A DNA stretch of 34,658 bases, taken from positions 1-34,658 of IMG/VR virus record IMGVR_UViG_3300025000_001225, one strand, 5' to 3'. The stretch comes from a virus. The notes beneath the pieces are model-generated. The model was given only the letters and a program-made list of their open reading frames with translations. It had not been told where the DNA came from and did no database searches. This document shows positions 3,473 through 29,302 of this stretch, piece by piece. The position numbers were made by a program, and so were the translations under genes. Positions within the stretch are counted from its first letter, which is position 1. Each line of letters starts with the position of its first letter.

Positions 3473-3793
3473 GTGGTGAAAATAACTGACGAAGTAAAGA
3501 GAATGGATGTTAAGGAATTTAGAGAAATGGGACTGCTCGTAGAGTTGAACAGAACATTTCTTCACCCACTAGGGCTGGCCTTGGAAGTAGTTGTAGATGA
3601 TGACGGAACTGAAAAGCTAGGAGGCATATGGGATTATAGAGATGATCCGGAGGGTATCGTTTACGGTAATCCTTTGCCTGTTGATAAAGTCAATAAGGCC
3701 AGGGAATTCATTAAACAAAAGCATAGACAGAGAGCTAAGGTGTTGGGCTTTGTCTACCAGGAAGTGGGTGGTGAAAAATTAACAGAAACATAA
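3473..3793 (+). CDS. Conserved-looking phage protein of unknown function
   Basis: 106 residues, soluble, with no membrane segment or clear catalytic motif. Notable stretches are 'LHPLGLALEVVVDDDGTEK', 'GGIWDYRDDPEGIVYG' and a basic helix near the C-terminus. Two tandem GTG codons (3473 and 3476) follow GAACGGGG, and either could be the start. The 3' end overlaps the open frame of the prohead protease by about 15 bases, so the two genes look coupled. It could be a small head-region accessory protein. No function can be assigned from sequence alone. Confidence 0.72.
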   Translation: MVKITDEVKRMDVKEFREMGLLVELNRTFLHPLGLALEVVVDDDGTEKLGGIWDYRDDPEGIVYGNPLPVDKVNKAREFIKQKHRQRAKVLGFVYQEVGGEKLTET

Positions 3794-4353: not shown

Positions 4354-6020
4354 AGCAATTAATTCTGAGTAAGCGCATTGCCGGACTAAAAAATCAGCTA
4401 GAAGAACTTCGAAAAAAAGACGCTGAGTTCGGCACCAGGACAGCAGAATTACAAAAACGTGAAGCAGAACTCGAAGCTGCTGTAAACGAAATCACAGACG
4501 AGACACCGGAGGCTGACCGAACTATTGTTGATGAGTCTGTTGCAGCTTTTGAAACCGACCAGCAAACACTTGAAGCTGACCAGTTAGCTAACGATGAAGC
4601 TAAGAAAAAATTGGAAGAAGAAATCCAAACCTTGCAAAAGGAACTGGATGAAATAGATAGCAGGGCAAAAACTCCTCCACCGGCGACACCTCCGAAAACG
4701 GAACAAAGAAAGGATGAGCAACACATGAGCAATCGTATGAAATTTTTAGGTGCTCTTACCCCGGAGCAGCGCAGCGCATTCATTGAACGTGATGACGTTA
4801 AGGACTTCTTAGTTAGAGTCCGCGACTTTAAAGGACAGCAGAGGGCTATTACAGGAGCAGAGTTAACTATCCCCGAGGTAGTGTTGGATTTACTTAGGGA
4901 CAACCTGCACCGCTACAGTAAATTAATCACCAGAGTAAACTTAAAGCCGGTACCTGGTAAAGCCCGTCAAAATGTAGCTGGTACAATCCCAGAAGCTATC
5001 TGGACAGAAACAGTTGGCAGTTTGAATGAATTAGCTTTGCTATTTAACCAGGTTGAGGTGGATGGCTATAAAATTGGTGGATTTGTTCCTGTTCCAAATT
5101 CAACTATGGAGGATAGCGATCTTAATCTTGCAAATGAAATTTTAGATGTACTTGGTCAGGCAATCGGTTATGCGATTGATAAGGCTATCTTGTTTGGTAC
5201 TGGTGCCAAAATGCCTGTTGGTACTGCTACCCGCTTGGCTCAGACCTCACAGCCAGCTTATTGGGGAACACATGCTCCCGCCTGGACTGACCTGCACAGC
5301 ACTAATATACAAAAAATCGACCCGTCCAACATGACTGCCGCAGAATTTTTTGCAGCTCTAACGCTGAAGCTATTTATTGCCAAACCAAATTACAGCAACG
5401 GCGAGAGATGGTGGGTAATGAACAGTAATACCTACGCTGTTATCCTATCAAAGAGTATTACCTTTAACGCCGCTGGTGCTCTTGTTGCTACAGCAAACAA
5501 AACTATGCCCATTATTGGCGGTGATGTAGTTATCCTTGAATTTATGGCCGACAATGACATTATTGGTGGCTATGGCTCGCTTTATCTGCTGGCAGAACGT
5601 GCAGGAAGTCAACTTGCATCATCCGATCAAGTAAAATTTATTGAGGACCAGACTGTATTTAAAGGCACGGCCCGTTATGATGGTATGCCGGTTGTTGGTG
5701 AGGGTTTTGTTATGGTTAATATTGCTAACACTGCACCGACAACTACCGTAGCCTTTGCGTCGGATATTGCCAATACAGTAGCAACTCCTAGAGCATTGCC
5801 GATTGCAGGTTCCTACACCGGAGCGCAGAGCGTTGCTTTGACTTGTGCAACTGTTGGAGCCACTATCTACTATACCGTTGACGGCAGTACCCCGGACGCT
5901 ACTAAGACTGCTTATAATGGACCGATTGCTGTAGCTGCAACTGCAACCATTAAAGCAATTGCAATTAAAGCCGGTCTGACCAATTCAGCTGTTCTGAGTG
6001 CGGCTTATACTATCAGTTAG
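4344..6020 (+). CDS. HK97-type major capsid protein with N-terminal delta domain and C-terminal CHB_HEX-like domain
   Basis: About 558 residues. Residues 1 to about 115 are a charged coiled coil (delta/scaffold domain) ending in a Pro-Thr-rich linker, presumably removed by the protease encoded just upstream. The HK97 fold follows, roughly residues 130-450, with 'GTIPEAIWTETVGSLNELAL' and 'LNLANEILDVLGQAIGYAID'. The last ~95 residues (about 465-558) are an added Ig-like domain with 'GATIYYTVDGSTPD' and 'ATATIKAIAIKAG', the pattern of chitobiase/hexosaminidase C-terminal domains. An in-frame ATG at 4311 exists. I chose 4344 (MALKQL) because it matches the usual N-terminus and has GAGG upstream. 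The extra domain would sit on the capsid surface. Confidence 0.93.
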   Translation: MALKQLILSKRIAGLKNQLEELRKKDAEFGTRTAELQKREAELEAAVNEITDETPEADRTIVDESVAAFETDQQTLEADQLANDEAKKKLEEEIQTLQKELDEIDSRAKTPPPATPPKTEQRKDEQHMSNRMKFLGALTPEQRSAFIERDDVKDFLVRVRDFKGQQRAITGAELTIPEVVLDLLRDNLHRYSKLITRVNLKPVPGKARQNVAGTIPEAIWTETVGSLNELALLFNQVEVDGYKIGGFVPVPNSTMEDSDLNLANEILDVLGQAIGYAIDKAILFGTGAKMPVGTATRLAQTSQPAYWGTHAPAWTDLHSTNIQKIDPSNMTAAEFFAALTLKLFIAKPNYSNGERWWVMNSNTYAVILSKSITFNAAGALVATANKTMPIIGGDVVILEFMADNDIIGGYGSLYLLAERAGSQLASSDQVKFIEDQTVFKGTARYDGMPVVGEGFVMVNIANTAPTTTVAFASDIANTVATPRALPIAGSYTGAQSVALTCATVGATIYYTVDGSTPDATKTAYNGPIAVAATATIKAIAIKAGLTNSAVLSAAYTIS

Positions 6021-6031
6021 GATGTGAACAG

Positions 6032-6286
6032 ATGAAGGCGACAGTTAAAATTTACTTTGTCGGTTTTGATCGGGAGTTCAAGCCAGGTGAAACTGTTGAT
6101 CTTCCGTTGGATAAGATTGAGCAACTTAATAGCGCTGGGTTGGGGACCATCCTTGAGGTTGATGAGGTTGATGAGTGGCCTAAGCAAGTTGGCGGCGGAT
6201 ACTACGAATTGTCTAATGGTGAAAAAGTAAGAGGTAAAGACGTAGCTATTGCAGCTCAAGCCGAAATCGAGGCATCTGGCAGTTAG
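6032..6286 (+). CDS. Small head-region protein, unknown function
   Basis: 84 residues, acidic. It starts 'MKATVKIYFVGFDREFKPGE' and has repeated Val-Asp-Glu in 'LEVDEVDEW'. It is 11 bases after the capsid stop, with AGGATG before the ATG, so it belongs to the head operon. Small beta-rich proteins here are often head-completion or decoration proteins, but I do not recognise this one. It has no Cys and no membrane helix. Confidence 0.7.
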   Translation: MKATVKIYFVGFDREFKPGETVDLPLDKIEQLNSAGLGTILEVDEVDEWPKQVGGGYYELSNGEKVRGKDVAIAAQAEIEASGS

Positions 6287-6299
6287 GGGGGGGTGAGAT

Positions 6300-6728
6300 A
6301 TGGATACCGCTACGGTAACGTCCCTTGTTAAAGAGAGACTGGGAATAAAAACAGCGGCAAGAGACACATACCTGACTGCCATATCCGACGGCGTGATAAA
6401 AGAACTGGAGGATGAAAAAGGGTTGGTCCTGGATGGGGCTAACTCCTATCATCTTCTTTTTGTTGTTGATTACGCTACATGGCGGTACCAGAGCCGGGAT
6501 AAAGATACAGGTATGCCGAGGCACCTGCAGTATCGGCTACATAGCCTATATATCCATGTTGGATCTTCTAGGCTCAGGGTAGATGCTATTAAAATAGTAA
6601 CGGTATTGCCTGATATACCTGTTGCTTATACGGTATATGTCCTACCTGACAGTAGTAAACAAATGTATATTGATGGAGTATGGGCATTGGTTAGCCTGGT
6701 TGACGGTACATGGGTGGTGGTAGTATGA
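6300..6728 (+). CDS. Head-tail connector / adaptor-like protein
   Basis: 142 residues. The N-terminal helical part ('LVKERLGIKTAARDTYLTAI', 'GVIKELEDEKGL', 'DYATWRYQSRDK') looks like HK97 gp6/SPP1 gp15 adaptors that ring the portal. The C-terminal half is beta-rich ('IKIVTVLPDIPVAYTVYVL'), longer than a minimal adaptor. GGGGGG-type RBS lies just before the ATG at 6300. The next gene starts inside its 3' end. Assignment is by position, size and the DYATWRYQ-type helix rather than by a catalytic motif. Confidence 0.65.
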   Translation: MDTATVTSLVKERLGIKTAARDTYLTAISDGVIKELEDEKGLVLDGANSYHLLFVVDYATWRYQSRDKDTGMPRHLQYRLHSLYIHVGSSRLRVDAIKIVTVLPDIPVAYTVYVLPDSSKQMYIDGVWALVSLVDGTWVVVV

Positions 6729-7030
6729 CATATGACAACGAATTAACTCTTATTAGCCAGACCTACACAGAGGATGAAATAGGCAATCAGATACCAGCAG
6801 AGACGGAGACCGTTGTACTGTGCGGGGTAAAATCCATTGGCCGTACTGAGTTTTATAACGCTGCTGCAACTGGATTACGTCCTGAGGTTATTTTTGTTGT
6901 CCATGGGTATGAGTATAACGGAGAGCAGAAAGTAATTTTTGAAGGTGTTGGCTACGAGGTTATGCGTTCATATGCAATAGATTTTGAGGAAACAGAGATT
7001 ACCTGTCAGAAAATGATTGGGGTGGTGTAA
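6725..7030 (+). CDS. Head-tail joining / head closure protein
   Basis: About 101 residues, 'MTYDNELTLISQTYTEDEIG' to 'ITCQKMIGVV'. The pattern of an N-terminal beta strand, 'DEIGNQIPAETETVVLCGVKS', and the 'EFYNAAATGLRPEVIFVVH' strand pair is typical of the short head-closure proteins (SPP1 gp16-like/Phage_H_T_join). An in-frame ATG at 6710 exists. I chose 6725 because GGTGGTGG sits just upstream. It overlaps the preceding gene by 4 bases and the next ATG overlaps its stop codon (TAATG). Confidence 0.75.
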   Translation: MTYDNELTLISQTYTEDEIGNQIPAETETVVLCGVKSIGRTEFYNAAATGLRPEVIFVVHGYEYNGEQKVIFEGVGYEVMRSYAIDFEETEITCQKMIGVV

Positions 7031-7779
7031 TGGCTGAATTTAATTTTGAGCTTAACAGCGCATTGGGTGGCTTTAGGACAGCGGCCCGTTATGACACAGA
7101 CGCAGAAAAATGGCTGACCGATTCGGCTATGTGGGTTAAGAATACAGTCGGGATATATGTGCCTGTTAGCGATACGGACCCCATACCTAGTAAATCAATA
7201 GGAGTAGTCACGGTTGCTATTGACATTGGTACCGCAACTGGCGGCAGCAAAACAACCATCGTAGATACTACACAGAACTTTGAAGCAAACATGCTTGCCG
7301 GTGATATCGTGCGGGTAAACGTCGGCGGCATAGATTACTACCGTACTGTTGCCAGCAATACAGCGGACACGATAACTATATCTACCCTGCCTGGTGCTCC
7401 TGCAAGTGCCATTCTTGGTAATCCAGGCGTGGAGGAAGTTACCGTAACCTGTGTGACTGATGGTATCGGAGGCAATGAATACACGGCCGAGATTATAGAA
7501 GCACCTGGGACAGACGATAATCTGAGCGCTTCGCTGACAGGACTTGTTTTGACGGTATACCTCGGAAAGACTGGCGGCGTACTTGATAACGCAAAAAATA
7601 CTGCTACAGCAGTAGCAGAAGCAATCGACCAAATACCGGAATTTATAGCGACAATGACAGGCTCCGGTGGTGTGATGCCGGTAACGGTTGAATCAGTAGA
7701 ATTTACCGGGGGCGTTGCTGTTGTAACGGTTACGGCAGGATCGAAATATGAAATAAAATGGAATACAGTCCATGGCTGA
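7030..7779 (+). CDS. Decoration- or neck-like phage structural protein
   Basis: 249 residues, strongly beta-rich with many Thr/Val/Gly. The N-terminal ~50 residues ('AARYDTDAEKWLTDSAMW', 'VGIYVPVSDTDPIPSK') resemble the N-terminus of the tail-tip protein at 15831-16682 ('TAVYDANIAQWM', 'SGIWVPLQLN'). The middle has 'ADTITISTLPGAP', and the C-terminal half has 'GIGGNEYTAEIIEAPG' and 'VTVESVEFTGGVAVVTVTAG', repeated Ig-like strands. Such an insertion between head closure and the gp10-like protein is unusual. It may be a head- or neck-bound decoration or fibre protein. No enzyme motif is visible. Confidence 0.7.
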   Translation: MAEFNFELNSALGGFRTAARYDTDAEKWLTDSAMWVKNTVGIYVPVSDTDPIPSKSIGVVTVAIDIGTATGGSKTTIVDTTQNFEANMLAGDIVRVNVGGIDYYRTVASNTADTITISTLPGAPASAILGNPGVEEVTVTCVTDGIGGNEYTAEIIEAPGTDDNLSASLTGLVLTVYLGKTGGVLDNAKNTATAVAEAIDQIPEFIATMTGSGGVMPVTVESVEFTGGVAVVTVTAGSKYEIKWNTVHG

Positions 7780-8152
7780 TATTAATATAGATGATTTTGC
7801 CCGTGAAATGACCGATATGATCCGTGAGTATACCGAAGATGTCAGCGCTGCCATAGATGCCGAGGTTGATAATACAGCAATAAAGGTACTAAAAGAGGTC
7901 AAACGCTTGGCCCGCAAACGCTCCGGAGAATATGCCCGAACGTTCGTAATAACAAACAAATCCCTTCCAGGTAACCGGAAATACGTTGTCTGGAATAAAA
8001 AGCACTATCGCCGGGTGCATTTGTTGGAATATGGCCATGCAAAGGTTGGAGGCGGCAGGGTTAGGGCATACCCACACCTTGACCCGGCACATCGAAGGTA
8101 TGGACTGACCATGCCGGACAGGATTAAGCGAATTATTGAGAATGGAGGGTAA
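7772..8152 (+). CDS. HK97 gp10-like tail completion protein
   Basis: 126 residues. The N-terminal acidic helix is followed by 'KRLARKRSGEYARTFVI', 'YVVWNKKHYRRVHLLEYGHA' and 'HLDPAHRRYGLTMPDRIKRI'. This Lys/Arg-rich stretch, LLEYGH motif and HxDPA segment are the hallmark of the HK97 gp10 family, which completes the tail end that joins the head. It overlaps the previous gene by 8 bases, as is typical of coupled morphogenesis genes. Confidence 0.88.
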   Translation: MADINIDDFAREMTDMIREYTEDVSAAIDAEVDNTAIKVLKEVKRLARKRSGEYARTFVITNKSLPGNRKYVVWNKKHYRRVHLLEYGHAKVGGGRVRAYPHLDPAHRRYGLTMPDRIKRIIENGG

Positions 8153-15020: not shown

Positions 15021-15830
15021 TTGCTTGGCTTCACTTTCAACGGTCAAAACTCAGGAAATTTCGGAATTGTTATGCGCTCAAAAAACCGTCAATTACTGCC
15101 GCAAACTGCCGACAACCTGGAAGAAATACCGGGGCGTGATGGCAGTATTTTATTTCCCGGTAGTCTGCAGGACCGGCTAATCGAGGTTGACTGCTCTTTC
15201 GTTGAAACTTCAATTCCGAATTTGCGTAAAAGAGCCCGGCAAATGGCCGCATGGCTATATACTTCTACCTGGGCAGATTTGATTTTTGACGATGAGCCAG
15301 ATCTAAAATACAGTGCCAGGGTAGCTAATCAGCTAGATTTAGTCAGCACGGTATCGCTAGGCACATTTACCTTGCAGTTTCGTTGCTTGCCGTTGGCGTT
15401 ATCGGTTGAACAGTTTGGATTTTTTGAGGTTATAGGCAGTGGTACTTTTTCAATACAAAACAACGGCACACGCGAAACATTACCAGTTATCACTATATCA
15501 GCTATTGATTTAGGCGACAGCGGTATGGACAGATCTGTAGATGTGACTGGGGTTTTTGACCCAACAGAAACAATGGTTGCTACACTGACAGACCCAGAAC
15601 TGACTATTGGTAGTAAAACAATCAAATATACGGGATCGCTGACAGCAGGTCAAAGTATCGTTATAGACTCAGAAAAATTTCAGGCATACAAGGGAGAAAC
15701 AAACGTCCTAAATAGTATCTCAGGTGAGTTCCCGGTGCTTGAAATAGGAGAAAACACCGTAGCACTAACCTATGACACAAGCACAATAGGCGGGGTAGTG
15801 GAAATTAGGTATAGAGAGAGGTGGTTGTAG
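15021..15830 (+). CDS. Distal tail protein (Dit)
   Basis: 269 residues. The N-terminus 'GFTFNGQNSGNFGIVMRSKN', then 'DNLEEIPGRDGSILFPG' and 'LRKRARQMAAWLYTSTWADL', is the SPP1 gp19.1/TP901 Dit pattern. Dit forms the hexameric hub joining tail tube and tail tip. The C-terminal half is a galectin-like beta domain with 'IKYTGSLTAGQSIVIDSEKF'. TTG start one base after the tape-measure stop region with GAGGGGTG upstream. It stands between tape measure and tail tip genes as expected. Confidence 0.92.
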   Translation: MLGFTFNGQNSGNFGIVMRSKNRQLLPQTADNLEEIPGRDGSILFPGSLQDRLIEVDCSFVETSIPNLRKRARQMAAWLYTSTWADLIFDDEPDLKYSARVANQLDLVSTVSLGTFTLQFRCLPLALSVEQFGFFEVIGSGTFSIQNNGTRETLPVITISAIDLGDSGMDRSVDVTGVFDPTETMVATLTDPELTIGSKTIKYTGSLTAGQSIVIDSEKFQAYKGETNVLNSISGEFPVLEIGENTVALTYDTSTIGGVVEIRYRERWL

Positions 15831-16682
15831 GTGGCGAATTTTACCCAGGCGCTTAATACTGATCTAAACAGTAAACTAACGACGGCGGTATATGACGCTA
15901 ATATAGCACAGTGGATGCAGAAAACGCAGAATCATGTTCAAAATTCGTCTGGTATCTGGGTCCCGCTACAGCTAAACGCAAACGGGAATCTGAAAGCGGC
16001 GGTTAGTGAAGCATTGCCAGTGGGTAATAATAATATCGGAGATGTGGATATTGCATCTGCCACGACTTTAGAAAGTAGGTTGGGAGCCCTAACCGATGCA
16101 GCAATAGTGGACCCGACTGTAAGTGCAGCGGTTATTTCGCTTCTAAAAGGACTTCTCAAGCAGCACCAGGGCAACGGTTCGGTAAAGGATCAGGCGGATG
16201 TTGTTGACCGGGCAGCCAGGGTGTTGGGTAAAATCACTGCCGATGATTCTGCCTTAGCTCAATTAGGTGCACTTGCTGCAGTTGCCGTAACAGATCCAAC
16301 CGCTGCAGCAAGTGTTATAGCCCTCTTAAAAGGACTCTTAAAACAACTCCAGGGAAGTGGTACCGGAGCCCAAAACATTTCTCTAATTAGCAGTATTGAA
16401 ACAATTAATACCACCCCTGTTGTAGGCGTAAAAACTGTAACGGCAACTGCCGCAGAGGTGTTTGCCGGAGCCTCTGCGAAATCCAACAGGCGCAAACTAA
16501 GCATTAAAAATGAGGACCCCATCCTAAGATTTAGAATTGGTCCTTCATCTGTTACTCAGCAGACTGGTTACCCTGTAGAGCCTGGCGCTACTGTGGTATT
16601 TCAATTCGATCCGGCTGCAGCTGTTCCAATTTATGCTATTTCAGAGGGGGTAAATATCACTGTTGCAGTTCTCGAAATATGA
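15831..16682 (+). CDS. Tail-tip/baseplate structural protein with internal repeat
   Basis: 283 residues, GTG start with GAGGTGGT upstream. The N-terminal ~50 residues ('TTAVYDANIAQWMQKTQNHV', 'GIWVPLQLNANGNLK') resemble those of the protein at 7030-7779. Two similar alpha repeats follow, 'LGALTDAAIVDPTVSAAVIS' and 'LGALAAVAVTDPTAAASVIA', each ending in LLKGLLKQ-HQG or LQG. The C-terminal beta domain ends 'AAVPIYAISEGVNITVAVLEI'. A decayed copy of this C-terminal domain is found just downstream. Function is probably attachment or assembly at the tail tip. No enzyme motif. Confidence 0.72.
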   Translation: MANFTQALNTDLNSKLTTAVYDANIAQWMQKTQNHVQNSSGIWVPLQLNANGNLKAAVSEALPVGNNNIGDVDIASATTLESRLGALTDAAIVDPTVSAAVISLLKGLLKQHQGNGSVKDQADVVDRAARVLGKITADDSALAQLGALAAVAVTDPTAAASVIALLKGLLKQLQGSGTGAQNISLISSIETINTTPVVGVKTVTATAAEVFAGASAKSNRRKLSIKNEDPILRFRIGPSSVTQQTGYPVEPGATVVFQFDPAAAVPIYAISEGVNITVAVLEI

Positions 16683-16860: not shown

Positions 16861-17073
16861 ATGACCCATGTAATAACAGAAAGTATAGACGGGACTACGA
16901 CCATTAGAGTTAGCTTTTCTGACGAAGGTGTCATATTGACCGGCGAAACATCAGTTAAAGGCGACGAATCTGCTGCGTTAAATTATCTGCCGACATTTGA
17001 GGCAGATTTGCGCCGGAACTTCGCTGACCAATTTCCGGCTCCTGAAATGCCGGCTGTAGAGGAGGAAGTGTAA
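16861..17073 (+). CDS. Small acidic protein upstream of the lectin-like gene
   Basis: 70 residues, acidic, 'MTHVITESIDGTTTIRVSFS' to a Glu-rich end. Beta-rich first half, then 'ALNYLPTFEADLRRNFADQF'. GGAGGG lies 6 bases before the ATG and its TAA directly abuts the ATG of the next gene (17074). It may be a chaperone or attachment partner of the C-type-lectin-like protein, but only the tight coupling supports this. Confidence 0.65.
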   Translation: MTHVITESIDGTTTIRVSFSDEGVILTGETSVKGDESAALNYLPTFEADLRRNFADQFPAPEMPAVEEEV

Positions 17074-18261
17074 ATGAAATACATCAGCGGCCCATATACA
17101 CAAGGGCAGTTGCTTGACAACATACACAAAATTGAAATGGCCCTTACTCAGAGATTTAAACGCGACGGTGTTATAACTGACGCTGCAGAGCAGAAGTCAT
17201 GGCGTGATAGAGTGCTTGAGGCTTCGCTGGGAAGAAACACTGTAATGTACGATGACCAGGGCAACCCTTCGATGATGGTAGTTTTCCCGCTACAGACTGA
17301 GGCTGATCTGCTCACCGGAGCCAGTAGCAACCCCCATCCGGCATTTTTGGTCAATGGAGCAACTAAACCGCAACTATACATCTCCAAGTACCAATGCTTT
17401 ACGACAGGTGCAGGAGCAACTCTCCGTGCATCAAGTCTCAAACATCAAGACCCCGCAAATACCATTACGTTTGACAACGCTTTGCTGGCCTGCAATCAAA
17501 AAGGTGTAGGATGGCACCTGATGACCAACGCTGAGTGGGCGGCCATTGCATTGTGGTGCAAGAAACAGGGATTCTGGCCGAGGGGAAATAACTCATACGG
17601 CAAAGACTATGCCATCAACTCAGAAAAGGGCATACCTGGTTATTTTTCTAGTAATAATATTGCCCGCGTGTTAACCGGTTCCGGGCCCATGGCCTGGTCT
17701 CATGACGGCGGTCCGTTTGGTATTTATGACCTCAACGGTAATGTTAATGAATGGGTCAGCGGACTGCGGCTAAATGAAGGCGAAATTCAAATATTGCAAA
17801 ACAATAACGCCGCCGATAATACTAAAGATCAGAGTGCGGTAAGCGCAGAATGGAAAGCCATACTACAGGACGGTACATTAGTTGCCCCTGGCACTGCTGA
17901 CACATTAAAATACGACAGTACCGGTGCTGATAGCGGATCGAGTGCTGATGTAGGTGATATTAGGCTAAACACTGCGATCACTAACATTCTGACCAACTCA
18001 TATGCTAGCAACACTTTTCAGACAACCGCTGCCGCAGACGGGATAACAGCGCCTAATCTTTTAAAACTGCTTGGCCTATTCCCTGTAGACTCAGATCACG
18101 GTGGAGATAATCACTATATGAGAAACTCTGGAGAGCGTCTCTCGATCCGGGGTGGGGGCTGGGGCGGCACGTCCGTCGCCGGGGTGTTCAACTTGTACCT
18201 GGGTTACCCCCGTTCGGGTGCGATCGGCGACATCGGCTTCCGCTGTGCGTTCGTAGCTTAG
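17074..18261 (+). CDS. C-type-lectin/FGE-fold protein, DGR target-like
   Basis: 395 residues. The central region has 'WHLMTNAEWAAIALWCKKQG' and 'PFGIYDLNGNVNEWVSGLRL', the formylglycine-generating-enzyme/C-type-lectin pattern seen in receptor-binding and DGR-diversified proteins. The C-terminus from about residue 359 is 'RGGGWGGTSVAGVFNLYLGY' then 'PRSGAIGDIGFRCAF', matching the variable-region layout RGG-W-GVF-L-PRS-IGFR. Ggc/tac/atc/gac/gtc codons fill positions where a template repeat would carry AAC. The N-terminal part probably anchors it to the tail. It most likely binds host surface receptors. No reverse transcriptase or template repeat is visible in the window. Downstream come a hairpin, an HNH relic and a damaged gene start. 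Confidence 0.85.
   Translation: MKYISGPYTQGQLLDNIHKIEMALTQRFKRDGVITDAAEQKSWRDRVLEASLGRNTVMYDDQGNPSMMVVFPLQTEADLLTGASSNPHPAFLVNGATKPQLYISKYQCFTTGAGATLRASSLKHQDPANTITFDNALLACNQKGVGWHLMTNAEWAAIALWCKKQGFWPRGNNSYGKDYAINSEKGIPGYFSSNNIARVLTGSGPMAWSHDGGPFGIYDLNGNVNEWVSGLRLNEGEIQILQNNNAADNTKDQSAVSAEWKAILQDGTLVAPGTADTLKYDSTGADSGSSADVGDIRLNTAITNILTNSYASNTFQTTAAADGITAPNLLKLLGLFPVDSDHGGDNHYMRNSGERLSIRGGGWGGTSVAGVFNLYLGYPRSGAIGDIGFRCAFVA
18140..18260 (+). repeat. DGR-like variable region (VR)
   Basis: The 105 bases 18146-18250 contain only 8 adenines, against roughly 25-35% in neighbouring sequence, and the stretch is GC-rich. Candidate diversified codons (NNC) are G362, G364, G365, S367, V368, N373, Y375, Y378, I384, G385 and D386, fitting adenine mutagenesis of AAC codons. 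Invariant scaffold codons keep normal usage. The GC-rich end 18230-18250 occupies the place of the IMH element. Confidence 0.7.
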
Positions 18262-18270
18262 AAAACAGAA

Positions 18271-18290
18271 GGAGGGTTATCTGACCCTCC
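18271..18290. other. Perfect 7-bp hairpin after the VR gene
   Basis: GGAGGGT (18271-18277) pairs with ACCCTCC (18284-18290) around a 6-base loop, 9 bases after the stop codon. In BPP-1-type DGRs a GC-rich cruciform 3' of the VR stimulates homing, which this could be. It could equally be a terminator for either strand, since both flanks are T-rich. Confidence 0.55.
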
Positions 18291-18371
18291 TTAGTCACTC
18301 TTTATTCTATGTGTTATTTTTCTATGACAATCGGCACAAAGTAATTGTAAATTTGTTACGGAAGAAACTAT
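18291..18371 (-). pseudogene. C-terminal relic of an HNH endonuclease-type protein
   Basis: On the minus strand 26 codons read 'IVSSVTNLQLLCADCHRKIT' then 'HRIKSD' and stop (TAA at 18291-18293). 'NLQLLCADCH' is the CxxCH end of HNH nuclease domains. A stop codon (18372-18374) lies directly upstream and no start is present, so only the tail of a former gene remains. It may derive from a homing endonuclease, an HNH-bearing RT or another mobile gene. It does not by itself prove a former DGR RT. Confidence 0.6.
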
Positions 18372-18392
18372 TTAATAGTTTGGTATTTGTGC

Positions 18393-18401
18393 GGGGGGGG
18401 G
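18393..18401. repeat. Run of nine G (possible slippage or error site)
   Basis: Nine consecutive G residues directly before AAGTGAT and the disturbed start of the tail endopeptidase gene. Such a run is prone to slippage and to sequencing error. It may be the footprint of the rearrangement that left the HNH relic. Confidence 0.8.
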
Positions 18402-18466
18402 AAGTGATATAAATAAATCACCTCGTAGTTTTCGATAAACTTGAAACGAACTTTACTGGTTACGGA

Positions 18467-21400
18467 TTGGCGATCTTGGAAAATGCTAAGGAAATAAAAA
18501 TACACGAAAAAATAAACGGCGAATACGAACTGTCTTTCCAGATATCCGTCACTGATGAAAAATTCCAGTATGTCCAGGAAGAAAATATCATCAAAGAGCC
18601 TGACGGGCAGTTATTTGTTATCCGGGAAATAGATACGGCCCGGAACGGTTCAAAACTGATGGCAACCGTCGTGTGTGAGCATGTCTTTTTCCTTGCCATA
18701 GACGAATATCACTTGGAGGTAGTCCTTCAAAGCGCTACGGCAGAACAGGCAATGACAGCGGCTTTCGCCGGGACACCGTACACCGTCGTAACAGTGGAAC
18801 CGATAACGTTGGCAGACATTGAGCTACTCGACACTAACCCCATAGTGGTAACTAATGAGATAATCAAACAATGTGGCGGGGAACTGCACCGAAATAACTT
18901 CAGTGTATCGCTGCTGAACAGGTTAGGCGCAGACAACGGGGTGCAGTTTCGTTACCGCAAAAACTTAAAAAATATCAAGCGAAACGTCAATACCAAAAGC
19001 CTTGTTACTCGCTTAATCCCGCTTGGTAAGGACGATCTAAGCATTTCATCCATAAATGGCGGTGTAGAATACATCGACAGTCAGTACATCGGTAATTATC
19101 GCCGTCCAAAATATTCAGTCATGCGCTGGCCGGAGATCGACGATGAGAACGAATTGCTTGCAAAAGCGCAGGAGTATTTAGCCAAGGCAGATGTGCCGGA
19201 AGTCAGCTATGAGGTTGATGTAGTAGAGTTGAAGGCACTTGCTGAATACGGAAACTTAGAATCGTTTTCGATAGGCGACGACATAACTATTATTGACGAG
19301 GAATTAAGCGTAAATGTAAAAGCCCGTATCGTAGACTATGAGCGATACCCAAAAGAACCCCGGAAATCAAGAGTAGTTATAGCCAACTTCCGACAAGGAT
19401 TGGAAGACCTGCAAGCAGAACTTAAAGCCGCTAAAGATAAGGTAGATGGTTTTACCACAATGGCCGGAAGGGTTAGGGCACCGTGGCTTGAAGGTATTAT
19501 TAATATCCTGCAAAATCAGCTTCTAGCCTCCGGAAGCTATACCTCTGCTCAGGTCATTGAGGGAAAAGGTTTGCTTTTAGAAAATACTAATGTTGATAGT
19601 CAAGATTATGGGGCTTTGTATTTGGGGCCAGGGATATTTGCTATTTCCAGCGCCAAAGACTATGCCGGTAAATGGATCTGGCGTACATTCGGAACCGGTA
19701 AAGGATTCACTGCCGATGAAATGAATACTGGTCTACTTAGATCGGCAGTAGTTCAGATCGGCCCTGACAGCACTTATGCCCAAAACTACAACCCGGCAAC
19801 AAAAGCAAATACCTTTAGGCAAGCAACGCAGCCCACCGCCATAGCAGTAGGTGATATTTGGTTTAATACCGCAGACAAGAACAAGCAGTATCGCTGGAGC
19901 GGTACTGCTTGGGATCCTGTCAGGGATACCGACATAGATGCTTTAAATAATTTTGTTAACACTACTTACCCGGCTGATTTTGCCTATCTTGAGGGTTTGA
20001 TCGACGGGAATATCACGACATGGTTTTACGCCTACACTCCGACATTGGAAAACATCCCGGCAAGCGACTGGACAACCAGCACCGAAAAGGACAACCACCT
20101 TGGCGACTTATTTTATGACAGCACTACTGGCTATGCCTACAGGTTTGTCTACGATGATAGCGTCTATAGCTGGCAACTTATCCCGGATACCGACGTTGCA
20201 ATAGCTTTGGCCCTAGCACAACAAGCCCAAGATACCGCCGATGGTAAGCGCAGGGTGTTTTTAGTGCAACCTGCACCTCCGTATGATATTGGCGATTTAT
20301 GGTCAGGTGGCCCGACCGGGGATATAGAAAGATGTGTCATTGCGAAGCTTGCTGGGCAAAGTTATTCCTCCGCTGATTGGGAGTTGGCGGCAAAGTACAC
20401 CGACGATACCAGGGCAAATGAGGCAATGGCAGCGGTCAACGCGGCTTCTGTAGCGGCGGCCAATGCGATTACAGCAGCTGCCGGAGCACAGGCCACAGCA
20501 GACGGAAAGGTTACTACTTTTTTTCAACCTGAACCGCCAAATCCGGAAGATGAAGGCGACTTGTGGATTGATACCAATGACGGAAATAAAATTTATCGCT
20601 CAAACGGTACTTATTGGGTACCGGCACAGGATAGTGGCATATCGCAAGCAATCGTAGCGGCGGCTGATGCTCAGAGTATTGCTGATAGGAAGATAGTTAC
20701 GTTTTATCAGGACACCGAGCCAGCAGTAGCTTCCTACGGTGATCTTTGGTTTGACACGAACGATGGGAATAAACCATACCGGTATTATGGTATGGAGCGA
20801 AGCATTGATACCACTGGAGCGTATGATCCCAATGATGCAATAAACTGGGTGGCTGTTCAGGATAGCAAGGCGGCTAACAGTGTGCAGCAAGCGGAAAATT
20901 ATAACGGCGTTGTTATTGATTCTGCAAATGGGGTTGTTGTAACCCGTGGCGATAATAAAGTAAGGGTTATCCTAAACGCCACGGGTGGAATTAAGATTCA
21001 GCAGTTAATTAACGGTGTGTGGGTTGATATGCTTTACGCTGACACTGACGGCAGCCTGACACTGGCAAGTAAAATTAAGATTGGTACCGGGGAGAATGTC
21101 TGTAAGGCAGACGAAAACGGTTTATATCTTGGTAGTGATACATTTAGTAGTGCTCCGTTTAGAGTTTCTCCAACAGGCCAGGTAATTGCCACTGATGGAA
21201 GTTTCAAGGGTGACGTTGACTGCGAGAGCTTGAAAATTAATACCGTTGATGTGCTAGAACAACTTTATTTGTTAGCAAAAAGCATATCAGCAGGAACATT
21301 AAAGACTGGCATTGGTGGCATAACAAAAGTTGAAGGCGACATTGTGTTAGGCCCTGGCAGTACGATTAGTTGGGACAGCATAACCGACAAAGAAAATGTT

Positions 21401-21694
21401 GTTGAGAAGTCCGGTACTGATTATACTTACCTGCAAAAAGACAAGATTTATAGCCCTATAATTGAAGGTGGCAGTATCATAAGTAATACTACTATTGATG
21501 TTGGGACTGATGTTCATATTGGAAGAAAATTATATATGAATCCAGGCAGTTTTACTTCTGATATAATGTTTACTTCCGGTGATGCGAAAATATATGGTGA
21601 TCCGGCGGCAGACGCTGTACATTTATCCGCCCCTGGTGGTGTATATGCAGGAACCCAGAGATTAGATCAGCCTATTGTTGCAAAATTTGGTTGA
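18467..21694 (+). CDS. Prophage tail endopeptidase / tail-tip (Tal-like) protein
   Basis: 1075 residues from TTG 18467, the first normal start codon, but without a good RBS. The frame is open back to TAA 18410-18412, and the translated upstream part 'INHLVVFDKLETNFTGYG' matches the usual N-terminus of the family, so the true start is probably near 18413 (ATA) after GGGAAGTGAT. Residues 1 to about 320 are the tail endopeptidase (Prophage_tail) domain. Beyond ~450 are several 'GDLWFDTNDGNKPYRY' modules separated by Ala-rich linkers ('AVNAASVAAANAITAAAGAQ'), which look like carbohydrate-binding or adhesion repeats. The C-terminus is beta-rich ('GSIISNTTIDVGTDVHIG') like a fibre tip. It likely forms the tip spike that contacts the host. 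Confidence 0.85.
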   Translation: MAILENAKEIKIHEKINGEYELSFQISVTDEKFQYVQEENIIKEPDGQLFVIREIDTARNGSKLMATVVCEHVFFLAIDEYHLEVVLQSATAEQAMTAAFAGTPYTVVTVEPITLADIELLDTNPIVVTNEIIKQCGGELHRNNFSVSLLNRLGADNGVQFRYRKNLKNIKRNVNTKSLVTRLIPLGKDDLSISSINGGVEYIDSQYIGNYRRPKYSVMRWPEIDDENELLAKAQEYLAKADVPEVSYEVDVVELKALAEYGNLESFSIGDDITIIDEELSVNVKARIVDYERYPKEPRKSRVVIANFRQGLEDLQAELKAAKDKVDGFTTMAGRVRAPWLEGIINILQNQLLASGSYTSAQVIEGKGLLLENTNVDSQDYGALYLGPGIFAISSAKDYAGKWIWRTFGTGKGFTADEMNTGLLRSAVVQIGPDSTYAQNYNPATKANTFRQATQPTAIAVGDIWFNTADKNKQYRWSGTAWDPVRDTDIDALNNFVNTTYPADFAYLEGLIDGNITTWFYAYTPTLENIPASDWTTSTEKDNHLGDLFYDSTTGYAYRFVYDDSVYSWQLIPDTDVAIALALAQQAQDTADGKRRVFLVQPAPPYDIGDLWSGGPTGDIERCVIAKLAGQSYSSADWELAAKYTDDTRANEAMAAVNAASVAAANAITAAAGAQATADGKVTTFFQPEPPNPEDEGDLWIDTNDGNKIYRSNGTYWVPAQDSGISQAIVAAADAQSIADRKIVTFYQDTEPAVASYGDLWFDTNDGNKPYRYYGMERSIDTTGAYDPNDAINWVAVQDSKAANSVQQAENYNGVVIDSANGVVVTRGDNKVRVILNATGGIKIQQLINGVWVDMLYADTDGSLTLASKIKIGTGENVCKADENGLYLGSDTFSSAPFRVSPTGQVIATDGSFKGDVDCESLKINTVDVLEQLYLLAKSISAGTLKTGIGGITKVEGDIVLGPGSTISWDSITDKENVVEKSGTDYTYLQKDKIYSPIIEGGSIISNTTIDVGTDVHIGRKLYMNPGSFTSDIMFTSGDAKIYGDPAADAVHLSAPGGVYAGTQRLDQPIVAKFG

Positions 21695-21698
21695 TTAA

Positions 21699-22229
21699 TT
21701 ACGGTTCGCGGTAATATTTTGAATGTATCCATGTTCTACCTAAATAAATTTTAACATCATCTTTGCTTATATTTATTTGTTCATCAATTCCATTTAATTG
21801 GTATATTATTATGTTTTTAGTTTTATCATATCCATATTGTGCCTTATTAAAATCTTTATGATCATAAAATTTAGTTCCATAGTCATTTCTATCAAAATAC
21901 GTTACACCATCAATTATCATAGCTTTAAGTCCATTGAAAGTAGTTTCAGTAACATTGTCCTGGTTTTCAGGAGTAGCAGTAGCAGTTTGCTGCTGCTGAC
22001 CACTCATAACAACCACTGAATTGCTGGCAGAATCCCATTCCACCTTAGCTCCCAAAGCCTCAGCCAGTGGCCGGGCAGGCACCAAAGTCCGGCCATTAAT
22101 AATCTGAGGCGGTACGTCGGAGTGGATTTCCTGACCGTTTACAAATAGTTTAATCGGGCTACCTGCAAATGCAAATGTAGCAGTGGCCAAAATTAGACCA
22201 GCGGCAAAACTAGCAATGATTTTTTTCAA
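21699..22229 (-). CDS. Secreted copper-amine-oxidase-N-like domain protein (moron)
   Basis: 176 residues from the TTG at 22229, preceded by AAGGAGG with 8-base spacing. An upstream in-frame start would add about 18 residues and break the signal peptide. N-terminal signal peptide 'KKIIASFAAGLILATATFAF' followed by 'FVNGQEIHSDVPPQIINGRT' and 'PARPLAEALGAKVEW', the copper amine oxidase N-terminal (stalk) domain common in Clostridia. The C-terminal half has no catalytic motif. Oriented against the late genes, it ends 5 bases from the tail gene and has its own promoter, so it is a lysogenic-conversion-type cargo gene, perhaps acting at the cell wall. Confidence 0.75.
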   Translation of the reverse strand: MKKIIASFAAGLILATATFAFAGSPIKLFVNGQEIHSDVPPQIINGRTLVPARPLAEALGAKVEWDSASNSVVVMSGQQQQTATATPENQDNVTETTFNGLKAMIIDGVTYFDRNDYGTKFYDHKDFNKAQYGYDKTKNIIIYQLNGIDEQINISKDDVKIYLGRTWIHSKYYREP

Positions 22230-22254
22230 TACAAAGACCTCCTTTTTGAAGTGT

Positions 22255-22283
22255 ATTTTATCACAGGAAAACTTGTTCGACAA
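22255..22283 (-). promoter_or_regulatory. Candidate promoter for the moron gene
   Basis: On the minus strand TTGTCG (22278-22283) is spaced 17 bases from TAAAAT (22255-22260), a fair sigma-A-type promoter, about 25 bases before the TTG start at 22229. It would let the gene be expressed independently of the late operon. Confidence 0.45.
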
Positions 22284-23086: not shown

Positions 23087-23311
23087 ATGCCTAAAGTTTT
23101 AAATGAAAGTGCGGAAATAATCCAGGATAATGGTGTGTTTAGGGTTAGAAAAACTACTATCCAGGAAGAAGAACTAACCAGCGAGAGAATCTACAGAATC
23201 CTGATTGAACTGGAAAGCAGAAGGACGAACCTGAAAACCGAACTGACCAGGATTGACGGAGAAATTGCAAGATACGAAGATCTGCTGGTTAAAGTTAAAA
23301 GTGCTGTTTAA
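23087..23311 (+). CDS. Small coiled-coil protein before the protease gene
   Basis: 74 residues, GAAAGGAGG before the ATG. N-terminal beta-rich part 'PKVLNESAEIIQDNGVFRVR', then a coiled coil 'LIELESRRTNLKTELTRIDG'. Its TAA overlaps the ATG of the subtilase (ATAATG), so they are coupled and the two products may interact. No family assigned. Confidence 0.65.
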   Translation: MPKVLNESAEIIQDNGVFRVRKTTIQEEELTSERIYRILIELESRRTNLKTELTRIDGEIARYEDLLVKVKSAV

Positions 23312-25272
23312 TGTCCAGTGAGTCTAAACGATACTTTGTTAAGTTTGACAACGTCTCAGACGCTGCTTTGATTGAATCTGTTGGTGGCAAAGTGAGACAC
23401 GACTATGCTAACATGCCGGAACTGCTTTCCGCAGAGTTAACTGAAGAACAGGTTAATTTATTAAACCAAAATCCAGCAATTAAAAGTATTAATTCGGTTA
23501 GTGCTGGCCGAGGGTCTTCTCAATCTATGGATTGGGGTTACAGTAAGACAAAAGTTGATTCATACTACAGGCAGATTTACACTGGTAAGAATGTAAAAAT
23601 AGGAATGGTAGACAGTGGTATTGAAGTCCACGAAGATCTGCCTTATGTGTCAGGATGGATAGATTATATAAATGACTATACCTATCAATATGATGATCAA
23701 GGTCACGGCACATTTGGTGCAGGTATAATTTCAGGACAAGATAATACGGTTGGTTACATTGGAGTTGCGCCTGATGTACAATTATATGGGGCAAAAGTTC
23801 TTGATAATACTAACTTTGGGTGGGTAGATGATTTTGTTGCTGGCATTGACTGGTGTATCTCTCAGAGCGTCCACATAATCAATTTACCACTTTCAACAGC
23901 AGACGGTGATTATGATCAAGATTTAGTTGATGCCTGCAGACGTGCTTATAATGCAGGAATAATAGTTGTTAGTTGCTCTGGAAATGGAACATACTCCTCA
24001 GAAACAAAAACATGGAGCAATGTAGGTATTTCTACCGTTCAGTGTCCGGCTTCTGATTATTCATGTGTTGCTGTAGGTGCAACTACTACAGCAAATGCTA
24101 GAGCATCCTTTTCGGACTATGGTGATGGGCTTGATGTCGTAGCACCTGGGGAATATGTTGTAAGCTGTGATGAGTCAAGTTATGGTGGGTACAAAGTCGC
24201 AAGCGGTACTTCCTATGCAGCCGCTTATGTAACTGGTCATTTAGCCTGTTTAAAAGAGAAATATCCTTCGTATTCCCGTAGTCAGCTAGTAAATAAATTA
24301 TTGAATAATTGCCTCAATTTAGGAGATTCATATCAGTATGGGTACGGGTTAGTGCAAGCTGAACCTTTGGGTAATTTCTTAGAAAACGAGCCCAGCGTTA
24401 CCAGTAGGATTGATGCAGGATTTAATTTAGATTGGACTAGCATCCCGTATACAGAATATTATTATTTATATTATAAGAAAGCTGGCGATGTATCATGGAC
24501 AAGAAAAACTGCTTTAACATCACAATATACAGCAGAAAATCTTGCCTATGGTTATGCTTATAGTTTTTATGTTGAAGCTTATAGAAGATATCTCAACAAC
24601 GGAGATACTTATTCGATTTTGATTGCTACATCTAATACACAAATCGCAACAGTAAATCCTTGTCCACCAACATTATCTTTAGTGAGTAAAACAGATAATT
24701 CAATTACTGTTCAGGTTGATTTAGTGAGTGGGATTGCAGAAGGGGATGTAGTATACATTTCACCATCTGGGGATCAATCATCAATTGAAACTTCGCCTGG
24801 AGGACAAGTAACATTTACTGGATTAACTTCGGGAATAGAGTATACATTACACGCAAAATCATGGGTTACTGGCGGGGATGGTTCGAGGGTTTACTCTCTG
24901 GCTAATGGCCCTTCTATTTATGTTACGCCAGGAATAGCTAGACCGTCCGATTTTTGCTGGACAACTCCAAAAAATCAAGGCGATCCTGCAACGAATTTGA
25001 CCGATGACGAGTGGAATGCGCTGTGTGCTAAAATCAACGATTTCAGGGAGTATAAGAGTTATGCAGATTCATCGTTTACGGCGGCAATTACCGGCAATAC
25101 GTTTTATGCAAGCCAGTTTAACCAGGCCCGCAATGCAATATTGCCGATGAGTGGGGCAGGATTGCCCGTTACGAAAGTTGGTGTTTCTGGTGTTGTTAAT
25201 CCTAGCGATGCTGACGATGTTCGTGCCAGCGACTTGAATGCTTTAGTTAGTTGTTTGAATGCTATTTTATAG
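23311..25272 (+). CDS. Subtilisin-like serine protease (S8) with tail-like C-terminus
   Basis: 653 residues. The catalytic triad is visible: D101 (GMVDSGIE), H132 (DDQGHGTFG) and S301 (ASGTSYAAAYVTGH), with oxyanion N225 (SCSGNG). Residues 1-70 resemble a short I9-type propeptide. There is no signal peptide, so it is not exported as a normal secreted subtilase. Residues ~370-545 hold two fibronectin-III-like segments ('PSVTSRIDAGFNLDWTSI', 'YTLHAKSWVTGGDGS'), and the last ~95 residues ('WTTPKNQGDPATNLTDDEW', 'NQARNAILPMSGAG') resemble phage tail-fibre ends. It may be a virion-carried protease that digests host surface protein, or act during lysis. Confidence 0.85.
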   Translation: MSSESKRYFVKFDNVSDAALIESVGGKVRHDYANMPELLSAELTEEQVNLLNQNPAIKSINSVSAGRGSSQSMDWGYSKTKVDSYYRQIYTGKNVKIGMVDSGIEVHEDLPYVSGWIDYINDYTYQYDDQGHGTFGAGIISGQDNTVGYIGVAPDVQLYGAKVLDNTNFGWVDDFVAGIDWCISQSVHIINLPLSTADGDYDQDLVDACRRAYNAGIIVVSCSGNGTYSSETKTWSNVGISTVQCPASDYSCVAVGATTTANARASFSDYGDGLDVVAPGEYVVSCDESSYGGYKVASGTSYAAAYVTGHLACLKEKYPSYSRSQLVNKLLNNCLNLGDSYQYGYGLVQAEPLGNFLENEPSVTSRIDAGFNLDWTSIPYTEYYYLYYKKAGDVSWTRKTALTSQYTAENLAYGYAYSFYVEAYRRYLNNGDTYSILIATSNTQIATVNPCPPTLSLVSKTDNSITVQVDLVSGIAEGDVVYISPSGDQSSIETSPGGQVTFTGLTSGIEYTLHAKSWVTGGDGSRVYSLANGPSIYVTPGIARPSDFCWTTPKNQGDPATNLTDDEWNALCAKINDFREYKSYADSSFTAAITGNTFYASQFNQARNAILPMSGAGLPVTKVGVSGVVNPSDADDVRASDLNALVSCLNAIL

Positions 25273-26969: not shown

Positions 26970-27170
26970 ATGATATTTGGTTTTTTAGCCTTAGGCGGCT
27001 TGACCATTTTAAGCCGGTTCTTTATCGACCGGGGCGGTAAGGTAGTCCTAAAAACCTGGACTAAGAGGGATTTTATTTCTACCGTGTTGTGGACGCTGTA
27101 TATAGTTATGGTTTGTTATTTCCAGTGGTGGCCAGCGGTAGCCAATGTATTTATAGGAGGCGCTAAATGA
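26970..27170 (+). CDS. Small membrane protein upstream of the FtsK gene
   Basis: 66 residues with two hydrophobic segments, 'MIFGFLALGGLTILSRFFI' and 'STVLWTLYIVMVCYFQWWPA', and a basic loop between (KVVLKTWTKRD). CCCGGAGGTG lies just before the ATG. Its stop overlaps the ATG of the FtsK-like gene (27167), so the two are coupled. It may anchor the ATPase at the membrane as in conjugation modules. Confidence 0.65.
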   Translation: MIFGFLALGGLTILSRFFIDRGGKVVLKTWTKRDFISTVLWTLYIVMVCYFQWWPAVANVFIGGAK

Positions 27171-28510
27171 GTATATTTGAGTACACGGAAAACAGCTCCA
27201 GGGGCGGCAATCCCTACGACATAGGAGCATCCCTGGGAACGATTATCTATGACAGCCTGGTTTGCTTTTATAAGTTAGGCGAGAATCTTTATATCAGTCT
27301 TACCAATAATCAACTACCTAAAATAATTGATGAAGTTTTTCTTAATACTGGTATTGTTACCAGGGCGCCATTTCAAAACAGAATCCTAAGGCCGATTCTT
27401 AAGGAGCGAAAAGAGAAAAAATCTGGTGAAGGTGTTCAAATCGGATGGGATCATATTTATTGTCTTCCTCCGGGCCTGTGTGTCGATGATTTTCTTAAAA
27501 TTCAAATGGAATTAGAAATGGCGACTAATTCAGAAGTTAATTTTGAGGACGTCAATGGTCTGCTCATTATGAGTATTTTTACTAATCAGCTACCAAAAAG
27601 AATAACAGCTTTGACAGGCCATGAAAAATGGAATTTCCCATTAGAGTGTAACAAATATGATTTGCCTATAATCATAGGTGAATCTAGGCAGGGGCTAGAG
27701 ATTATTGACCTTGCGGCAGCCCCACATGTTCTGGTAGCCGGTGAGACTGGTGGAGGAAAATCAAATATGCTTTGGCTGTTTCTCCTAACACTTGCCCAGT
27801 ATTCAACCTGTTACGTCATTGACTTAAAACAGGTAGAATTTCAGCCAGCCAGAGGTTTGGTTACCATGGCCGATACCTTAGGCGAAGCTGTTTATGTGCT
27901 GGAAGAACTTGAAATTGAAATGCGGCGCAGGATGGCATTATTTAAGCAGGTGAATGTCAGGAATATTAAAGAATTCAATGCTGTAGTTCCAAACGAACAC
28001 CGGCTAGGCTATATCAGTGTGCTGGTCGATGAACTCTCTCAGCTCTCTCCGGATGTGGTCAAGAGAGATCACCCGGAGTATAAAGGCAGGCAGAAAGCTC
28101 ATGTACATTTAACGAATCTGATGTGTTTAGCCAGGGCACTGGGTATTCATTTGGTCCTTTGTACCCAACGGCCTGACAGAACCATCGTGTCAGGCCAAGA
28201 GAAGGCAAATTGCCCAGTAAAAATATGCTTTAGGGCTGACCAGGTGACTTGTGAAATAGTATTCGGAAAAGGTTACTATAAATGTTCTATACTTCCTAAA
28301 ATACCCGGTAGGTGTGTACTAAAAATAGATTCGGAAAAGGAAATCCAGGTCTATGAAATGGTAATAAAGACCAGTCCAAGGCTTTTAAAATTCGACGATG
28401 AACCGGTTTCGGATGTAGATGGTAAACCGGTTCCGGACGTAGACGATAAACCGGTACTTAAACCAGTATCCGACTTAATCCAAACACCCCGGCAAGAATT
28501 AATCCCATAG
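27167..28510 (+). CDS. FtsK/SpoIIIE-type DNA translocase ATPase
   Basis: 447 residues. Walker A GETGGGKS at residues 192-199 and Walker B LVDEL at 286-290 (D288/E289), followed by 'LVLCTQRPDRTIVSGQEKAN', the typical sensor/arginine region. The family pumps double-stranded DNA and, in ICEs and plasmids, couples the relaxosome to transfer. It starts inside the small membrane gene and is followed by a replication-relaxation-like gene. The C-terminus carries a 'PVSDVDGKPVPDVDDKPV' tandem repeat encoded by repeated ACCGGT-containing DNA. Confidence 0.85.
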   Translation: MSIFEYTENSSRGGNPYDIGASLGTIIYDSLVCFYKLGENLYISLTNNQLPKIIDEVFLNTGIVTRAPFQNRILRPILKERKEKKSGEGVQIGWDHIYCLPPGLCVDDFLKIQMELEMATNSEVNFEDVNGLLIMSIFTNQLPKRITALTGHEKWNFPLECNKYDLPIIIGESRQGLEIIDLAAAPHVLVAGETGGGKSNMLWLFLLTLAQYSTCYVIDLKQVEFQPARGLVTMADTLGEAVYVLEELEIEMRRRMALFKQVNVRNIKEFNAVVPNEHRLGYISVLVDELSQLSPDVVKRDHPEYKGRQKAHVHLTNLMCLARALGIHLVLCTQRPDRTIVSGQEKANCPVKICFRADQVTCEIVFGKGYYKCSILPKIPGRCVLKIDSEKEIQVYEMVIKTSPRLLKFDDEPVSDVDGKPVPDVDDKPVLKPVSDLIQTPRQELIP

Positions 28511-28525
28511 AAAGGTTGTGATGGC

Positions 28526-29302
28526 TTGTCTTTAGACGCTTCAGGCCAGGAAAATAAGACCGACCAAAGGGAGGTTAAAAGGGCCGAATTTGATTCGGGT
28601 AGTGCAGGGAATGGGTGTGGGAAAGGGAGACTAAAACAAATTGGGAAAAAACGCCAAAATAATATTTGTTCGTTAGTTGACGAATTAGCTGTTTTGTCCA
28701 GGGAGCAGGTGCAGATGCTAGTCTTTGGCCCCGGTGATTACTATGCGAAGAAGTGCAGGGAAACGCTGCTGAAACTGGTTAAGCGAGAGGAATTAAGCCG
28801 GGGCAGGACGTCTTTGACTGACAGTTACGTTTACTGGCAAAGGGGCAAGAAGCCTACACAGATAGACCACATCTTACTGCTGAACTGGGTTTATGTTGCT
28901 GTCAGTAAAGCACCTAACTGGTGGATTTTAAAGGACTGGCAGACCAAGGGCATTAAGTGTGGTAATATCCTGGTGCCGGATGGGTTTATGGTCCTTAAGA
29001 ATACCGAAAAGGATAAAGCTTATCCGTTTTACATCGAGGCGCAAAGAATAGACAATAAGTCTGTATTTGATAAGGTTAAGAAATACACTGACTATTTCAT
29101 GTCGGGCGAATGGCATACACCGGAGTGGTCAGGCGGTAAGCAGTTTGCCGGTATCCTGGTGATTACAGATGGCTTTGATACTGATAAAAGGCGACTAGAG
29201 GGAATTATCCAGAAGGAAAATTCTAAGAATCTCCGGTTTACTGTAGCCACGATAGATGAGTTAATTAATAATTTTCAAGGGGTGATCTTAAAACATGAGT
29301 AA
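28526..29302 (+). CDS. Replication-relaxation-like protein (Replic_Relax family)
   Basis: 258 residues, TTG start. A winged-helix-like region ('LVDELAVLSREQVQMLVFGP', 'LLKLVKREELSRGR') is followed by a PD-(D/E)xK-like core: 'VPDGFMVL' and 'AYPFYIEAQRIDNKS'. This is the plan of Replic_Relax proteins of plasmids and ICE-like elements, thought to act in replication initiation and DNA relaxation. It is 15 bases after the FtsK gene. The start is not well fixed, with only a weak RBS. It could also act as a DNA-packaging or processing nuclease. Confidence 0.75.
   Translation: MSLDASGQENKTDQREVKRAEFDSGSAGNGCGKGRLKQIGKKRQNNICSLVDELAVLSREQVQMLVFGPGDYYAKKCRETLLKLVKREELSRGRTSLTDSYVYWQRGKKPTQIDHILLLNWVYVAVSKAPNWWILKDWQTKGIKCGNILVPDGFMVLKNTEKDKAYPFYIEAQRIDNKSVFDKVKKYTDYFMSGEWHTPEWSGGKQFAGILVITDGFDTDKRRLEGIIQKENSKNLRFTVATIDELINNFQGVILKHE

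Follow-up and report, generated by a model that had tools for sequence, protein, structure and literature searches.

The window analysed here is the whole linear IMG/VR record IMGVR_UViG_3300025000_001225 (34,658 nt), which starts at the terminase large gene and stops just past repressor and excisionase-like genes, with the early region lying outside the record. Among its tail genes is an intact ORF encoding the variable protein (VP) of a diversity-generating retroelement (DGR), and the features of this locus are collected in Table 1. DGRs are mutation-making cassettes that rewrite a phage tail protein and so enable phages to bind new hosts.

Table 1. Features of the VP locus in the window (positions of the record)
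Feature	Position	Strand	Remarks
Distal tail protein (Dit), upstream neighbour	15021-15830	+	also in sister prophage L186
Gene whose C-terminal half co-travels with VP	15831-16682	+	62-75% identity in several relatives
Small gene co-travelling with VP in relatives	16870-17073	+	
DGR variable protein (VP), TaqVP-like, FGE-type C-type lectin fold	17074-18261	+	395 aa
Variable region (VR), adenine-depleted	18134-18251	+	limits from homology to relatives' VR/TR pairs
Ten programmed codons, span	18157-18231	+	G362, G364, G365, V368, Y375, G377, Y378, G382, I384, D386; all NNY, no Asn
205 bases, slot of Avd-TR-RT in syntenic sisters	18262-18466	.	no similarity to RT, Avd or TR
9-bp hairpin right behind VP stop	18269-18292	+	6-nt loop TATCTG, or 4-nt ATCT with a T.G pair; not of the GRNA-loop type
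Tal / prophage endopeptidase tail protein, downstream neighbour	18467-21694	+	also in sister prophage L186

Several other features of the window were recorded. The stretch 18393-18467 contains a run of 9 G and an in-frame TAA at 18410, and Tal seemingly starts at an ATA codon at 18413 (INHLVVFDK...), 5' of the first TTG at 18467. The head protease (3780-4353) has no ATG, GTG or TTG ahead of 3883 and its frame is open earlier, which makes an ATT or ATA start plausible; the idea of a dead prophage with a frameshifted head protease was dropped because the gene order is normal. A copper-amine-oxidase N-domain ORF lies on the minus strand (21699-22283) within the structural/lysis region, and a similar-looking ORF, as judged by eye, follows Tal on the minus strand of the sister prophage L186 (10763-11704). 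Moreover, a protease of the subtilase family (S8), possibly carrying a fibronectin III domain, is encoded between Tal and the holin (23311-25272), and an FtsK/SpoIIIE-like protein with an adjacent replication-relaxation-type initiator, a plasmid-like pair in a phage, is found beside the integrase (27167-29302). An RNA family scan and a tRNA search of the window were both empty.

The only Pfam domain detected in the VP was the FGE-sulfatase/sulfatase-modifying-factor domain (2e-8), a name that by itself would suit a common FGE-like tail protein whose end is GC-rich and which has no DGR history. Among solved structures, TaqVP (5vf4) showed whole-length homology to the VP, with E-values of 8e-66 in a single-sequence phmmer search and 1.5e-114 with the family profile. 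An AlphaFold model of the VP, built with 30 relatives as input, reached a mean pLDDT of 94.5 and matched TaqVP with a Z of 54.3 over 355 residues (rmsd 1.7 A); other FGE-fold proteins were more distant, with a Z of 13.3 for Treponema TvpA and of about 11 for Mtd from phage BPP-1. The C-type-lectin/FGE fold that an earlier note had proposed from the sequence was thus borne out, as was its reading of the C-terminus as IGFRCAF, since the protein closes with IGFRCAFVA. It has been reported that D348 and N351 of TaqVP are the equivalents of S333 and C336 of hFGE (PMC6328139); this catalytic Ser/Cys pair is also absent from the VP, in which the aligned residues are the glycines G362 and G365.

TaqVP belongs to the DGR of a Thermus aquaticus prophage (PMC6328139). 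It is about 40% identical to the VP over the whole length, has the same FGE-type C-type lectin fold and a C-terminal VR, and the cassette that encodes it is ordered VP-avd-TR-rt, as in relatives of the window. However, avd, the template repeat (TR) and rt adjoin the gene in T. aquaticus, whereas none of them is present in the window. Mtd of the Bordetella phage BPP-1 is likewise a phage tail target with a C-terminal VR and the C-type lectin fold, but it is distant in sequence, has extra trimerisation domains and is part of an intact DGR with a GRNA-loop hairpin. The gene is a genuine DGR variable protein of the TaqVP group.

Within the VR, bases 18146-18250 comprise 8 A, 24 T, 31 C and 42 G, and this is the lowest A count of any 105-base segment of the record, confirming the adenine depletion noted earlier: 8 A or fewer occur in only 5 of the 34,554 such segments (starts 18146-18150), and 8 T or fewer in none. 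The GC content of this region (69.5%) is also the maximum of the contig, which has 42.7% overall. Programmed columns were taken from 29 distinct TRs of relatives, so that they are judged against the relatives' templates rather than the window phage's own; ten columns have AAY in at least 62% of these TRs, and the next highest reaches 34%. All ten window codons at these columns are NNY and none encodes Asn, and outside them the window residue equals the template consensus at 14 of 18 positions. Compared with the share of NNY codons in the gene itself (57%), the pattern has p = 0.004, which alone is not overwhelming. The earlier note had assigned NNC codons to all of the candidate diversified positions; the programmed pattern is NNY instead, with GGT at both G377 and G382, and the TCC listed there encodes S367, a framework residue outside the programmed columns.

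The comparison with related phages that the earlier note had suggested found differences enriched at programmed codon bases. Between the window and its closest relative, L030, 14 of 20 programmed first and second bases differ, compared with 21 of 64 other VR bases (Fisher 0.0037), and similar enrichment was obtained against L005, L003 and L020. This concentration of differences between VPs at programmed bases reinforces the NNY codon pattern and, together with the TaqVP homology and the ten NNY columns, upholds the assignment of the gene as a DGR target. The 3' end of the VR, TTCCGCTGTGCGTTCGTA, differs from the 3' ends of relatives, although the proper reference for an IMH is the phage's own TR. 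No obvious erosion could be found in the VR.

Dozens of VP homologues were identified in IMG/VR and bacterial genomes, and most of them are followed directly, on the same strand, by Avd, a template repeat and a DGR reverse transcriptase (RT). Relatives with 50-70% identity to the window VP bear intact VP-Avd-TR-RT cassettes, and in every intact relative found the RT lies about 1-3 kb downstream of the VP. The DGR is plainly alive in one group of relatives (L050, L051, L052, L054, L057 and L058), in which the gene bodies are identical and the VRs are 11-23 bases apart, differing from their own templates almost only at template adenines. The reading of the window gene as a protein with no DGR history is already refuted by the VR/TR pairs of relatives, and the whole-fold TaqVP homology and the programmed-column statistics also speak against it; its probability is negligible. 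Two further arrangements were observed among the relatives. In L053 (4652-6308), the VP runs past the usual stop and is followed by an RT without Avd, which looks like VR/TR recombination or assembly collapse of a repeat. A CRISPR-array-like sequence is present at the contig end behind the DGR RT of L002 (13821-14622), where the prophage seems to adjoin the host CRISPR locus.

The machinery found next to VP in these relatives could not be detected in the window. Searches of this incomplete record with PF00078 and with the family HMM on six frames revealed no RT, and no template repeat or second copy of the VR was found on either strand when mismatches at template adenines were allowed freely, in agreement with the earlier note, which had seen neither; tblastn of the window with the Avd of L002 was also negative. 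The gene order of the window is Big_5 protein, tape measure, Dit, the genes at 15831 and 16870, VP, Tal and the minus-strand copper-amine-oxidase-domain ORF. The order in L186 (prophage G036) is a Big_5-like Ig-domain gene, a small gene, tape measure, Dit, small genes, VP, Avd, TR, RT, Tal and a minus-strand gene, with the cassette (Avd 6018-6401, TR from 6423, RT 6727-7797) placed exactly between VP and Tal; all 18 differences between its VR and TR are at template adenines. In the IMG/VR phage L045, VP-Avd-TR-RT is likewise flanked by a Dit-like gene on one side and a Dit/Tal pair on the other. The VP-Tal gap of the window contains only non-coding bases with no resemblance to any of the three components, and deletion of Avd-TR-RT would be the simplest reading of this slot from the gene orders. 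Because the VP of L186 is only about 51% identical to that of the window, the deletion is inferred rather than observed in a near-identical pair. A search for a sister phage with Dit as bait found none and one with Tal as bait gave repeat-domain matches only, and since no near-identical sister was found the breakpoints cannot be placed.

It has been reported that a GC-rich hairpin whose 4-base loop reads GRNA lies just past the VR in phage DGR targets (PMC3240598, Guo et al. 2011), and that in BPP-1 a change in the loop or two added bases reduce homing to near background (PMC3240598). No canonical GRNA-loop hairpin was found downstream of the window VR, and the hairpin that does follow the VP may be a weak terminator. 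Among the loci compared, the GRNA hairpin is present in 16 of 27 with an RT and 1 of 12 without one (Fisher 0.004), as called by a one-mismatch rule with an arbitrary threshold set by us, which 11 of the 27 intact systems fail. Given this threshold and these failures, the absence of the hairpin is no more than supporting evidence for an orphan target.

Loss of the RT is common and recurrent across this VP family. Only residues 280-355 of the RT (the last ~75) are left in L005 (11216-11443), beginning 31 bases past the last aligned VP codon, inside the hairpin remains, and a similar RT fossil (residues 279-349 only) lies right after the VP in L064 (2371-2583). In L003 (1456-1860), the template behind VP and Avd breaks off after about 29 bases and no RT comes next, and the cassette of L208 (7613-8710) is apparently complete and has a TGA inside an otherwise full-length DGR RT (QY*LRQ). 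The closest VP, L030 (70-73% identity; 73% over 323 columns), is encoded by a Desulfoscipio prophage in a 2.8-Mb MAG. No Avd, TR or RT was found in this prophage, and the rest of the MAG contains no template and no DGR RT; the one RT in the MAG was rejected as a supplier in trans because its sequence is group II-intron-like. When RT-negative status was mapped onto a tree of VP bodies, 8 changes were required, at least 6 of them forced by well-supported branches; some RT-negative calls come from contigs that end within a few kb, and 10-16 kb of downstream sequence is available for L003, L006, L012, L013, L030, L038, L039 and the window. The record of L012 (G011; IMGVR_UViG_3300035041_000009; 52,637 bp) is probably a complete genome, as it has 127-bp exact terminal repeats; a DGR-type VP is present in this record, and RT and TR are absent from all of it.

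We put the probability at roughly 65% that the window gene is an orphan DGR target whose machinery has been deleted in cis and whose VR is now frozen. In this reading, the VP is the variable protein with which a temperate siphophage, whose hosts are probably Bacillota, faces its receptor, and it is the target of a TaqVP/BPP-1-type DGR. The codon pattern and the templates of relatives show that adenine-mutagenic retrohoming from a template wrote its VR at some earlier time. Synteny suggests that the window lineage later lost the Avd-TR-RT block present in its sisters between VP and Tal, and the same deletion would have taken any canonical target-site hairpin. The VR is most likely frozen at present as one fixed receptor-binding variant, and change would be left only to ordinary mutation or to recombination with DGR-bearing relatives. 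As the VR has no obvious erosion, either the loss was recent or diversification goes on from elsewhere.

Remote diversification, in which RT, Avd and a matching TR would reside in the early region, the host chromosome or a co-resident prophage and home in trans, is considered unlikely. Because the linear record runs only from terminase large to repressor and excisionase, a distant RT could sit in the unseen early region, and both the clean programmed pattern kept in the VR and the published targets more than 370 kb from the RT in Pseudogulbenkiania (PMC3521204) would agree with such an arrangement. Further support came from the RT-less L006 and L012, otherwise unrelated phages of one metagenome with a common 1.2-kb VP module, whose VRs differ at 17 of 20 programmed bases and 2 of 64 others. 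On the other hand, the VR of L006 is identical to that of L221 (IMGVR_UViG_3300035104_000006) despite 6% divergence of the gene bodies, with 0/120 differences in the VR and 0/524 in the 3' flank. This argues that the RT-less VR of L006 is not mutating fast and set back the use of L006 and L012 as proof of activity in trans; the identity may be due to freezing of the VR or to recombination at the 3' end. Other observations also count against a remote source: the RT adjoins the VP in all intact relatives, the L030 genome offers neither a DGR RT nor a TR, and the GRNA hairpin is missing from the window. The VR/TR framework of the window was unmatched in IMG/VR by exact-pattern searches, and a search with the VR DNA in 398 genomes of the phylum of the L030 host and 113 of its class found diverged VP/TR only (about 70-77%). 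Of the three options raised in the earlier note, machinery elsewhere in the phage, in the host, or lost, loss is thus favoured, not proven, by the filled slots of L186 and L045, the short VP-RT distance in intact relatives and the DGR-free MAG of L030.

It is improbable that the VP never stood beside a DGR in this phage and that recombination with a DGR-bearing phage brought in a module (half of the 15831 gene, the 16870 gene and VP) but not Avd-TR-RT. The VP module does move among unrelated phages: that of L030 is flanked by connector genes on one side and the tail tube gene on the other, with no RT, and L012 and L006 have little else in common, the only sequence shared by G011 (L012) and G005 of the same metagenome being the 1.2-kb VP module (86%) and a 486-bp piece. 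However, the order in the window, with Dit before, Tal after and then the minus-strand copper-amine-oxidase-domain ORF, is the same as in the cassette-complete L186. For the family as a whole, RT-less VPs might be satellite targets, that is, VP-only phages rewritten in trans by the DGRs of co-resident prophages or hosts. This is hinted at by the VRs of L006 and L012, which differ almost only at programmed bases, and we hold it to be doubtful.

Targets with a decayed RT are already on record, and the window is a decayed case of the same sort: in Pseudogulbenkiania sp. NH8B, distal DGR targets accompany a mutated RT (PMC3521204). That genome resembles the window in having target genes with a decayed neighbouring RT, and differs in that a second working RT was found in it, whereas none is known for the window phage. 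New here are a slot that is cleanly empty when set against a sister prophage, repeated loss within a single family of VPs, and an orphan VP in a phage genome that is apparently complete; our literature search was short, and earlier reports of such phage orphans may exist. Surveys keyed on the RT miss orphan targets of this sort. Preferring the orphan reading, we note that the alternatives of a retained and frozen protein or borrowed machinery are directly testable, as the target and the pattern expected in its template have now been named, along with a complete phage genome lacking the RT. These findings suggest that phages repeatedly retain a DGR-made receptor-binding protein and discard the mutagenic machinery, or depend on the machinery of others.
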